Assembly (NCBI GenBank): GCA_024103005.1
Contig: JAGFJA010000049.1
Span: forward strand, 1-64,000
Reading direction: 5' to 3'
Length of the DNA: 64,000 nucleotides
DNA from: Saprospiraceae bacterium
Lineage (GTDB): Bacteria > Bacteroidota > Bacteroidia > Chitinophagales > Saprospiraceae
Of the stretch, positions 26,457 through 30,121 are shown piece after piece (within the stretch, counting starts at the first letter, position 1; each line of letters begins with the position of its first letter). A model generated the notes under the pieces. The model worked only from the letters and a program-made list of their open reading frames with translations, made no database searches and was not told the origin of the DNA. The position numbers and the translations under genes were made by a program.

Positions 26457-26801
26457 TTATTTGATGATTAATAATATTTGATCGCCAATAAATTGCCCGA
26501 CGATTGAAATCATTGACATACTGCCGATCCCTGCCATCAAGCCGGTGATTACACGAAGAACATTATTGCTTTCACGGTTAAATATTGCCTGTGTCAATCC
26601 ATCCAAAAAGGTAGGAAGAATTAAGGCTATTGTCACCCAAATATTTAAACTTATGAAGTCAAAGAGAAATAACGGAAAACTGAGATATCCCAGGTGTATG
26701 CCTGTACAACGGGCACATACCGGAAACTGTTTCCCTCGCCAGAAAAAAGAACGATGGGGCAACCTGTGGCAAGCAGTCAGTTGGATCTTGAATTTTTCCA
26801 T
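26457..26801 (-). CDS. DUF2085 membrane protein
   Basis: A 114-residue membrane protein with three predicted helices. The N-terminal signature ACHRLPHRSFFWRGKQFPVC followed by ARCTGIHLGY is diagnostic of DUF2085, with its conserved Cys-His-Arg and CxRCxG elements that look like a metal- or redox-related site. The family has no established function. The frameshifted small membrane gene starts ten bases after its stop, so they form one unit. Confidence 0.88.
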   Translation of the reverse strand: MEKFKIQLTACHRLPHRSFFWRGKQFPVCARCTGIHLGYLSFPLFLFDFISLNIWVTIALILPTFLDGLTQAIFNRESNNVLRVITGLMAGIGSMSMISIVGQFIGDQILLIIK

Positions 26802-27490
26802 ATCAATAAGGCATTTTTATATTCCACTTATTAAATTTAAACATCATCAATACCACACTGCGAATTACTTATATTTTCCAATGTGATCATCCCGATAAAT
26901 TAAATTCGAATTAAAAAAAATATATTAACTCCTTGGATTATTTACAGAAATTCATTCTATAAATAGTCTCAACAGTAAAAATAATTTAAATTATTTTAAA
27001 ATCCTTATTTATTTGGTTTAAATTTAATTTTTTACTAACCTACATAATTCAATACGCTCATTTTCAAGATAATTAATCCAAAACATTTAATTTATTCCCT
27101 ATTGAGAGATTTCCTTTGATAGTCAAAATATCATTCTTAAAACTATTTTTTTTACTAAAAAATATTTTTTTTCATAGCATTTTATATCTTTACTAAGGCT
27201 ATTTTTAAAAAGCCATGGAAAATCTATATTAAAAAAAGCATTGCCCGATTTTAAATACCGGATTATTTATAAATAGGCGCGGGTTAATTCATTCTATTGT
27301 GTCACTCATTTATTTCAATCACGGTATTTAATTTTGATTTCCGGGAAGCAATTATTTTCCAAAGTTGATTTGCTCAATAGTCAACCGAAAATAGATTAAA
27401 TATTTTGAGCAAATCATTTTTCAATATGTTTTTTAAATATAATCCATGCAGAATAGCCGGCCAAGCCCAAACTGTTAAAACCTATATCAC
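26802..27490. other. Long AT-rich intergenic region
   Basis: Nearly 700 bases, strongly AT-rich with long A and T runs, separate the DUF2085 gene from the divergent AAA+ ATPase gene. No open frame of interest, RNA gene or repeat was recognised, and no exact TAnnTTTG box occurs within 60 bases of the ATPase start. A GGCT/AGCC-flanked AT palindrome is present around 27197-27214. Its length is unusual for this gene-dense window. Confidence 0.5.
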
Positions 27491-30121
27491 ATGGGACAAA
27501 TAGATATGCCGCAATCCAAAAAGAATTACAAGTTCAGAGAACTGAAGTGTTATTCTTCCACAGAGTGGCTTTATGACAATCAAAAGAAATACCGTCAGGT
27601 CTTTGACAGGTACGAAGTCGGGTATATCTACGCTGAGCTCTCCTTTATCAATAAGTTATATGACGAGGGTGACTGGCAGGCTCGTATTGAACTCAAATGT
27701 TACCAGATACTTGAAAATAATCAGCGTCAGGAAATCTGTTCACTGCATTTTGACAGAACTGTTTATAAATATGATCCAGTGGTGTATCTTAGGGAGGGTT
27801 GGGGATCAAAGACGGAAGGAAGCTTCTGGAAACAGGGTAGTTATTACTGGGAAGTGTACATCGATGGTGAAAAAGAGGGTACCAAACATTTTTATGTTAC
27901 GGATGCTGACCGTCCCTTCTTCGAAAATGATGACAACCCTTATCTTTTGCTCGAAATGGTCAAATTATACGAAGGATCATACGGTGACGTACCTGCAGAT
28001 GAACGTATAGGTTACACAGAATTTTCAAGCAGTGATACGAGACTTATTTATATCGAACTTACCTTCGATAATTTTTTGCAAAAAAACTGGCAATGCGAAG
28101 TTTTCGTGCGGATATACAATAGCAGCCGTGAGATGAAAGGCCAGATTATCCGAATGGTAAATGTCAAAAAAGAAGATACAGAATTCATTATTACAGCCGG
28201 TTGGGGCACCAATGTTAAGGGCAATTGGAAAAAGGGCAAATACACTTATGAAGTTGTATTTATGGATCGCGTACTCGCCATAGTACCCTTTACCGTCGGT
28301 GAATTCTTTATCGAAGGTATGCCTCAGGTTTACACGATGGATCCGCTAAAACCAAAGGAGCTGACGGATAGAGATGATGACAAGGAAACCTTTGAATCCA
28401 TCATGAAGAAAATCGATAGCTTCATCGGATTAACTGAAATCAAACAAGCCATCCGCAACCACTATGCATATATCAGTTTTCTCAATATCAGGAAGCAAAA
28501 AGGCTTAGAAACAGAGACAAAACTCAATCTCCACTCTGTTTTCATCGGTAATCCCGGAACCGGAAAGACAACCATTGCCGGATATATGGGTAAATTGTAT
28601 AAAAAAATGGGCATTCTCTCTAAGGGTCACGTCCATGAAGTTAACCGGGTTGACTTAGTCGGAGAATATATAGGTCAGACAGCTCCAAAAGTTAAGCAGG
28701 CTATTGACCAGGCGAAAGGTGGTGTACTTTTTATCGATGAAGCGTATGCACTAGCCAGAACCAATGACGATTCGAAAGATTTCGGACGGGAAGTCATAGA
28801 AATCTTGGTGAAAGAAATGTCTAGCCCTTCTTGTGACTTTGCCGTCATCGTGGCAGGCTACCCAAAAGAGATGAAACATTTCCTCCAATCCAATCCCGGC
28901 CTGAGCTCCAGGTTTAAAATGTACTATAACTTTACTGATTATCTACCTCAGGAACTGAGTCAGATTGCCGACTATATCGCAACTGAACTGAAAGTAAGAT
29001 TTACAAATAAGGCCAAATCTCTCTTGGATGAAATCATTCTGGAAGCATTCCGCAAAAAAGACAAAACATTCGGGAACGCCCGATTTGTTTACGATTTGGT
29101 CGAAAAAGCCAAGATAAATCTGGGCATCAGAACAATGCATAAAACCAGCCCTGAAAGGCTTTCAGAATCACAGCTATCGACGATAACAGATCAGGACATT
29201 CTGAAGATCAAAGAAGTGATTAAACCTACCCTACCTAATATACCGGTAGATAAAGAACTGTTGGCTGAGGCCAGGGCGGAGTTGAACGCTTTAATCGGAA
29301 TGGAAGAAATTAAAAAAGACATCGAAGAGGCTATCGGAATAGTTCTTTATAAAAGCAATCACGGCGAAAACCTGCTACACAAATTTTTCTTTCATACCAT
29401 GCTGATCGGCAATCCGGGTACGGGTAAAACAACCGTAGCCCGTATTCTTGCCAAGTTATTTAAGGCCTTGGGAATACTGGAAAGAGGCCACCTTGTGGAA
29501 ACAGATCGTCAGGGGCTGGTCGCCGGTTTTGTGGGACAAACTGCCATCAAAACCACAGAAAGAATTGACGAGGCAATGGGCGGCGTATTATTTATAGATG
29601 AGGCCTATGCCTTGGGAGGTGCCAACTTCAACGACTATGGCAACGAAGCAATACAGGTTTTGCTGAAGAGAATGGAAGATGACCGGGGTAAATTCTATGT
29701 ATTTGCAGCCGGATATCCGGATAATATGGACAGTTTCATAAAGTCCAACCCGGGTCTTTCAAGTAGGTTTGACAAGACATTGAAATTTTATGACTATAGC
29801 CCTGAAGAACTTATGCAGATTGCTGTCAAAATGTTAAAGGAACAATCATTCAGCCTCTCTTCCAAAGCTCATGAGCACCTCCACGCCTACATTCACTTTA
29901 TATGGCAGTTCAGAGATAAATATTTCGGAAATGCCCGAACTATAAGGTTAATCGTCGATGAAGTGATTAAAAAGCATAATATCAGACTTATCCTTGAAAC
30001 AACAAAAGAACCATCGAGAAAGAAAATAAATATCATTGCATTTGAAGATGTCAAATTCCTTGAATTGAAATCTGAAAGTCTTGTGTTTAACAGAAGGGCA
30101 ATTGGTTTTGGCAACCATTAA
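27491..30121 (+). CDS. Double CbbX-like AAA+ ATPase with duplicated N-terminal domain
   Basis: An 876-residue cytoplasmic protein. Two beta-rich repeats of about 95 residues come first (42-138 and 181-272), recognised by matching segments REGWGSKTEGSFWKQGSYYW and TAGWGTNVKGNWKKGKYTYE. Two CbbX/SpoVK-type AAA+ modules follow. The first has Walker A GNPGTGKT (353-360) and Walker B VLFIDEAYA (D416, E417); the second has Walker A at 640-647 and Walker B with D703 and E704. Each has the NPGLSSRF arginine-finger segment. Such ATPases remodel protein complexes (CbbX acts on Rubisco, EccA in type VII secretion). The repeats may recognise the substrate. The gene is isolated, with no obvious partner; the role is unknown. 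Confidence 0.9.
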   Translation: MGQIDMPQSKKNYKFRELKCYSSTEWLYDNQKKYRQVFDRYEVGYIYAELSFINKLYDEGDWQARIELKCYQILENNQRQEICSLHFDRTVYKYDPVVYLREGWGSKTEGSFWKQGSYYWEVYIDGEKEGTKHFYVTDADRPFFENDDNPYLLLEMVKLYEGSYGDVPADERIGYTEFSSSDTRLIYIELTFDNFLQKNWQCEVFVRIYNSSREMKGQIIRMVNVKKEDTEFIITAGWGTNVKGNWKKGKYTYEVVFMDRVLAIVPFTVGEFFIEGMPQVYTMDPLKPKELTDRDDDKETFESIMKKIDSFIGLTEIKQAIRNHYAYISFLNIRKQKGLETETKLNLHSVFIGNPGTGKTTIAGYMGKLYKKMGILSKGHVHEVNRVDLVGEYIGQTAPKVKQAIDQAKGGVLFIDEAYALARTNDDSKDFGREVIEILVKEMSSPSCDFAVIVAGYPKEMKHFLQSNPGLSSRFKMYYNFTDYLPQELSQIADYIATELKVRFTNKAKSLLDEIILEAFRKKDKTFGNARFVYDLVEKAKINLGIRTMHKTSPERLSESQLSTITDQDILKIKEVIKPTLPNIPVDKELLAEARAELNALIGMEEIKKDIEEAIGIVLYKSNHGENLLHKFFFHTMLIGNPGTGKTTVARILAKLFKALGILERGHLVETDRQGLVAGFVGQTAIKTTERIDEAMGGVLFIDEAYALGGANFNDYGNEAIQVLLKRMEDDRGKFYVFAAGYPDNMDSFIKSNPGLSSRFDKTLKFYDYSPEELMQIAVKMLKEQSFSLSSKAHEHLHAYIHFIWQFRDKYFGNARTIRLIVDEVIKKHNIRLILETTKEPSRKKINIIAFEDVKFLELKSESLVFNRRAIGFGNH

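Follow-up and report, generated by a model that had tools for sequence, protein, structure and literature searches.

The window analysed here, 64,000 nucleotides from a Saprospiraceae bacterium (GenBank assembly GCA_024103005.1, contig JAGFJA010000049.1, positions 1 to 64,000), contains a gene for a double-ring AAA+ ATPase that stands alone on the forward strand. The gene is a single open reading frame (ORF) with an ATG start, in which two predicted beta-sandwich domains are followed by two AAA+ modules and a short C-terminal tail that carries the tripeptide I-G-F (Table 1). Judged by its sequence, the protein is a two-ring member of the CbbX/SpoVK/EccA clade. An earlier reading of the same DNA (the original prediction) had picked out the gene; it missed the conserved IGF tail, the other architectures in which the beta domain occurs, and the standing of the gene as a core gene.

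Table 1. Features of the ATPase locus in window coordinates, with residue numbers in brackets. Confidence of the AlphaFold2 (AF2) models is given as the predicted local distance difference test (pLDDT).
Feature	Coordinates	Strand	Evidence
Intergenic AT-rich stretch 5' of the ATPase gene	26802..27490	.	ORF map, GC bins, no Rfam match
Gene for 876-residue double-ring AAA+ protein	27491..30121	+	ORF call; full-length homologues in 33/37 family genomes
Ig/FnIII-like beta-sandwich domain 1 (11-138)	27521..27904	+	AF2, pLDDT mostly >90; fold matches
Ig/FnIII-like domain 2 (148-275), duplicate of domain 1	27932..28315	+	hhalign; AF2 model
AAA+ module 1 (305-572)	28403..29206	+	Pfam AAA and AAA_lid_6; 278.8 bits to TIGR02881
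Walker A, module 1 (353-361)	28547..28573	+	invariant in 38 relatives
Putative pore loop, module 1 (Y-I-G, 393-395)	28667..28675	+	alignment of 38 relatives
Walker B, module 1 (412-417)	28724..28741	+	D416 and E417 invariant
AAA+ module 2 (592-845)	29264..30025	+	Pfam AAA and AAA_lid_6; 254.2 bits to TIGR02881
Walker A, module 2 (640-648)	29408..29434	+	invariant in 38 relatives
Putative pore loop, module 2 (F-V-G, 680-682; consensus Y-V-G)	29528..29536	+	alignment
Walker B, module 2 (699-704)	29585..29602	+	D703 and E704 invariant
C-terminal tail F-x-(K/R)-(K/R)-x-I-G-F (866-873), tripeptide 871-873	30086..30109	+	homologue counts, column conservation, pLDDT

Pfam finds two AAA and two AAA_lid_6 stretches in the protein. 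In an alignment of 38 relatives the nucleotide-binding motifs of both modules are complete, and each module has an aromatic triplet resembling a pore loop. The triplets Y-I-G and F-V-G are putative pore loops, by analogy with the family; in module 1, I394 and G395 are invariant and Y393 is present in at least 90% of the sequences. Also invariant are the sensor-1 A-G-Y (455-457 and 740-742), the arginine-finger residues R474 and R759, the asparagines N468 and N753 ahead of them, and the sensor-2 residues G528, N529, A530 and R531 in module 1 and G813, N814 and R816 in module 2. These residues agree with the traits given for the SpoVK/CbbX/EccA clade in the accessible part of PMC10659427, namely a GY signature in sensor-1, an arginine in sensor-2 and a conserved asparagine four residues ahead of the first arginine finger, except that plain counting places our asparagines six residues before the finger, so that the asparagine meant there may be a different one. 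A Foldseek search with the full-length model ranks CbbX first, followed by Cdc48/p97, NVL and the ClpA of ClpAP. The original prediction of two complete modules of the CbbX type thus agrees with Pfam and the invariant motifs as to completeness, and with Pfam, NCBIfam and Foldseek as to type.

We considered whether the gene is an orthologue of SpoVK, CbbX or EccA that does a known job, and regard this as highly improbable. The whole protein scores 520.8 bits with the SpoVK model TIGR02881, above the cut-off of 422.95, because the model sums two modules; taken singly, each module lies below it. The CbbX model TIGR02880 (434 versus a cut-off of 459.25 bits) and the EccA model TIGR03922 (428.2 versus 466.65 bits) fall short even with both modules summed, and the window's own genome has no match to PF00016, the Rubisco large subunit. 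Orthology was rejected on these grounds, and automatic annotation may call the gene stage V sporulation protein K, a name that the evidence does not support. The modules are not of the Clp/HSP100 type either, their best families being AAA, AAA_lid_6 and the SpoVK/CbbX/EccA models. Searches of the open-licence PMC literature, with the terms used, listed no paper on this architecture or on a ClpP link for CbbX/SpoVK-type proteins.

The two front domains are predicted to belong to the immunoglobulin/fibronectin type III (Ig/FnIII)-like beta-sandwich superfamily, with two sheets and 7-8 strands. The AlphaFold2 model, from 61 sequences, has eight strands per domain and a mean pLDDT of 89.3. The duplication is real, since a profile-profile comparison of residues 10-140 with 148-275 by hhalign gives a probability of 99.0 and an E value of 2.7e-18. 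The window's two copies alone match by BLAST at E 2e-8 (31% over 85 residues), and a hidden Markov model (HMM) of either repeat finds the other repeat's copies in 34 of 34 cases at E < 0.01. The duplication had been predicted from the sequence and stands, with a repeat unit of about 125 residues in place of the roughly 95 proposed. That the domain is beta-rich and unassigned was likewise correct: AlphaFold2 gives sandwiches, and Pfam gives no family, its best E values being scattered at 0.015-0.03. DUF6941 is among these weak matches in 3 of 34 members, and a DUF3859 match at E 0.0024 came from one distant relative only.

Matches to the predicted structure fix the fold class and no function, and the fold assignment rests on the families listed by the structure searches. 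The best solved Foldseek match to the domain pair is RbmA, which we take to be a tandem FnIII protein, with an E value of about 1e-8 and a template modelling (TM) score of only 0.3 over both domains. VIA-align gives a single domain Z scores of 10-11.5 to many Ig-like domains, for example AlkC and Wzt (Z 11.5 corresponds to 106 residues at 2.8 Å), with many unrelated sandwiches less than 1 Z apart. Substrate-recruiting domains of the clade occupy the same N-terminal place, according to the accessible part of PMC10659427, and we infer that the duplicated domain recruits substrate.

The front domain has a life beyond this ATPase. An HMM of the domain pair matched 28 of 395 genomes of the phylum. 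Apart from orthologues, the domain occurs singly in proteins of about 1300 residues that combine TPR stretches with three CbbX-like AAA modules, and in a two-module protein of 764 residues with a second Walker A that by eye appears degenerate; a 598-residue single-ring protein has it as a pair. It is also present in ORFs of 278, 661, 224 and 153 residues that have no AAA module, some with an apparent signal peptide as judged by eye. Three 278-residue ORFs (L154:7475-8311, L153:7526-8362 and L155:37-873) consist of an apparent signal peptide and two Ig-like copies, and from these stand-alone forms the Ig-like domain probably also exists outside the cytosol. The same ORFs speak for a membrane- or envelope-linked remodeller that would use its Ig-like domains to bind glycan or precursors of the envelope, as does the fold match to the Wzt O-antigen domain (Z 10.7, 104 residues, root-mean-square deviation 2.2). 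We consider this unlikely: the fold is common, the ties among unrelated sandwiches apply to Wzt as well, and a shared fold shows no ligand. This is an Ig-like family that lacks a Pfam entry and occurs in one- to three-ring ATPases and in stand-alone proteins.

The chain ends in a conserved tail, the motif being followed by 0-13 variable residues. A strict IGF within 30 residues of the chain end occurs in 71 of 75 complete homologues, as against 1 of 521 other proteins longer than 150 residues from the same loci; with the looser pattern [ILV]G[FLY] the counts are 73 of 75 and 42 of 521. The complete homologues are those of 82 homologous ORFs that have a true stop, one of the 82 (L149) being a 675-residue fragment. 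Two lack the loose pattern: L074, from Candidatus Parvibacillus calidus, has KIGFGSR followed by a stop in another frame, and L104 has an IGF just upstream of its last 30 residues. Among the 38 divergent relatives, I871, G872 and F873 are conserved at 92, 95 and 95%, while conservation does not exceed 39% in columns 855-865 and is 37, 24 and 18% for the final three residues; among 53 close relatives the tripeptide is at 98, 100 and 98%. A docking tripeptide is found in the last 30 residues of 36 of the 38 and all 53 aligned relatives, on the tail and not on an internal loop. The variants are few: IGF 32, LGF 2 and VGF 2 in the 36 matches of the wider alignment, and IGF 51, IGY 1 and LGF 1 among the close rows. 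Residues 863-876 have pLDDT below 50 in the full-length monomer model, and this predicted disorder is as expected of a docking peptide.

The tail appears special to this subfamily as far as tested. It is absent from the Rubisco-linked CbbX of S. meliloti, from a Bacteroides single-ring AAA protein and from the triple-ring relatives whose C-terminus was read; the triple-ring L168 fits the pattern only through an ILGL stretch away from the chain end. It is kept in a single-ring Ig-bearing protein (G203, IGF) and in a 351-residue single-ring protein with no Ig match, which ends LIGYTN (G098, IGY). In a tree built from 48 rows of AAA modules, all 21 rows that bear a tail lie to one side of a branch supported at 100/100, and a single change suffices. 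The rows were a chosen set of stop-ended ORFs, 15 of the 38 alignment rows, P0001-P0003 and three first modules; a row was scored as tail-bearing if its last 22 residues contained [ILVM]G[FY] or if it ended ISY, so that MGF (L166) and ISY (L046) count as tails in the tree only. Because one tail clade includes single-ring proteins with and without the Ig-like domain, the tail is retained while other parts of the protein change. It seems, from these sequences, to have arisen once and to have been kept through gain or loss of rings and front domains.

The tripeptide (L/I/V)-G-(F/L) is given in the accessible part of PMC8745299 as the consensus with which Clp ATPases engage ClpP at its hydrophobic pockets. 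We tentatively favour a two-ring unfoldase in which the Ig-like domains recruit, the rings thread and the IGF tail docks ClpP, and we commit to ClpP because only this reading predicts the tripeptide. The protein would form a hexamer of two stacked rings, with the Ig-like domains in front capturing a substrate or adaptor and the pore loops of both rings threading the polypeptide. Six IGF tails would hang from the far face of ring 2 and plug into the ClpP pockets as the IGF loops of ClpX do, and substrates would be degraded. The working mode would resemble that of Cdc48 or ClpA, the tail replacing the internal docking loop. Tail-bearing single-ring relatives would then belong to this protease family as its smaller members.

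The presumed partner is present in the window's own genome, where ClpP (C25:46324-46848) lies beside ClpX, whose docking loop reads IGY. Among 29 ClpX docking loops taken from 30 loci of the same group, 15 are IGF, 12 IGY and 2 VGF (rows L174, from the own genome's contig C25, and L207-L235). ClpP was searched for in a chosen set of seven genomes. Three larger family genomes (G018, G032 and G003) have two ClpP matches each; in G003 one of the two is cut at a contig end, and ClpX was not found.

Several observations weigh against docking to ClpP. Neither ClpP nor ClpX was found in two gene-carrying drafts, G007 (96% complete) and G024 (92%), and G007 has an IGF tail (row L068). Within its genus ClpP was found in one of three genomes, that one rated 100% complete; presence of the ATPase gene in the other two (G451 and G452) was not checked. 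Wherever they were seen, clpP and clpX are adjacent, and a single assembly gap could therefore hide both. Gaps are a plausible cause of the missing ClpP in drafts of 92-96% completeness, and real loss in these gene-carrying genomes is possible. Furthermore, the ATPase gene has no operon link to clpP, and one relative (L046) ends ISY. According to the accessible part of PMC8745299, the one earlier test of a linear IGF peptide found it a poor ligand, with hardly any activity on ClpP; that test is one without the avidity of a hexamer.

Nearly as likely as ClpP docking is a dedicated, protease-free chaperone or remodeller, in which the Ig-like domains hold one client, the rings pull, and the IGF tail binds another partner or a neighbouring subunit of its own hexamer. 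It ranks this high because every characterised member of the clade is of that kind: in the accessible part of PMC10659427, CbbX, SpoVK and EccA are narrow chaperones with no peptidase association, and N-terminal domains vary widely across the clade. The gene-carrying drafts in which ClpP was not found fit this explanation too. It leaves unaccounted for a tail that nearly keeps the ClpP-docking alphabet and is disordered in the monomer model, and no conserved client gene appears in the neighbourhoods. We give somewhat less than an even chance to the reading that the CbbX/SpoVK/EccA clade has here its first AAA+ protease component, feeding ClpP through IGF tails, with the tandem Ig-like domains as substrate receptor. 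Should the tail dock ClpP, a clade thought to be chaperone-only would gain a proteolytic branch, the bacterial family would gain an uncounted ClpP partner with a new kind of receptor domain, and docking by the chain end would be a second solution beside docking by an internal loop.

Comparison with known systems sets the protein apart from each of them. It shares the fold and sequence of its AAA+ module with CbbX, the top solved match being 3syk with about 40% identity over one module; CbbX has one ring, and that of S. meliloti lies beside Rubisco genes and has neither Ig-like domains nor the IGF tail. With the SpoVK/EccA clade it shares the sensor-1 GY and the sensor-2 arginine, in both modules, and a variable N-terminal domain, which is habitual there (PMC10659427, accessible part), and differs in having two rings, tandem Ig-like domains and the tail. 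Cdc48/p97, NVL and Afg2/Drg1 also have N-terminal domains ahead of two stacked AAA rings, and the Foldseek matches span both rings; our protein has an Ig-like front instead of a p97-type N domain, and CbbX-like modules. ClpX, ClpA and ClpC are ring unfoldases with aromatic pore loops and the (L/I/V)-G-(F/L) tripeptide, which they carry on an internal loop and not at the chain end, and their AAA modules are from another branch. Proteasomal ATPases dock through C-terminal HbYX tails, a likeness to the IGF tails if these do dock ClpP. Within the phylum, the TPR-Ig-triple-AAA proteins (L156, L158-L161 and others) share the Ig-like domain and CbbX-like modules and differ by TPR stretches, a single Ig-like match, three AAA modules and the absence of the tail.

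The gene is a core gene of its family. By a hand count from the table of matches, 33 of the 37 genomes from the window's family have a full-length homologue, two more have fragments and two have none; in the order's other families the full-length count is 7 of 23 genomes. Some match exists in 57 of the 60 relatives searched, many of these matches being only generic AAA. Among 562 confirmed relatives in named records, the best 80 carry the labels Saprospiraceae, Saprospirales, Lewinella, Phaeodactylibacter, Chitinophagales, Sphingobacteriales or Bacteroidetes/Bacteroidota/Bacteroidia, and the nearest with a species name among these 80 is Candidatus Parvibacillus calidus. Even without ClpP, the results define a core-genome ATPase that is likely to be auto-named as a sporulation protein.

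Upstream, the gene is preceded by 689 bases whose two 300-base bins have a GC content of 21% and 26%, which bears out the prediction of an isolated gene after almost 700 AT-rich bases; an Rfam search of this stretch gave no match. The operon beyond it had been described as broken. We find its minus-strand genes for ferredoxin, IscX, a KdsC-like protein, a UbiA-like protein and Maf all intact (Maf named by Pfam, the others by reading the sequences), and this block also flanks the ATPase gene in relatives, at 17 of 57 testable loci. Between the block and the ATPase gene lies a gene for a DUF2085 membrane protein (26457-26801, minus strand). Neighbourhoods were compared at 81 loci (80 fetched plus the window). 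The upstream neighbour is either this block or a divergent gene for a ClpA/B-like protein of 1100 residues in 33 of 57 testable loci, and a methyltransferase gene lies downstream in 24 of 58. No neighbour is general among the 81 loci and hence no conserved partner or client gene was found, just as the original prediction had judged the partner not obvious.

Other origins and associations were tried and rejected. As a defence system the gene gave only partial PADLOC matches, over parts of the AAA modules. For phage or plasmid origin, no relative of the N-terminal part was found in viral contigs; 269 plasmid records match, none covering 80% of the query. A PHROGs search gave nothing. The ClpA/B-like gene, a neighbour in 24 of 57 testable loci and the immediate one in 17, was rejected as an obligate partner, because it turned up in just 14 of 60 relatives, none of them in the window's genus. 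This 1100-residue, divergently transcribed ATPase (L057:4450-7737 and 27 further copies, some cut at contig ends) has an N-terminal region of about 200 residues with no Pfam match among those shown. Scored by a pattern of our own, 17 of the 28 copies have LGF, LGY or, in one copy, VGF at the ClpP-loop position or close to it, and 11 do not.

The window's own genome holds a second copy of the ATPase gene on contig C28, 40% identical to the first. The locus L053:162-3266 carries this divergent paralogue, and so does L045:8067-11136, where it is split into two ORFs. In both genus genomes where it was seen, the paralogue is followed on the same strand by a gene for a conserved protein of 144 residues, which has no Pfam match and may be an adaptor. 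Single ORFs of 1386-1712 residues that string together four or five CbbX-like AAA modules were seen at G123:C139 (L181), G127:C15 (L187) and G173:C40 (L185/L205); so many modules in a single bacterial chain are unusual.

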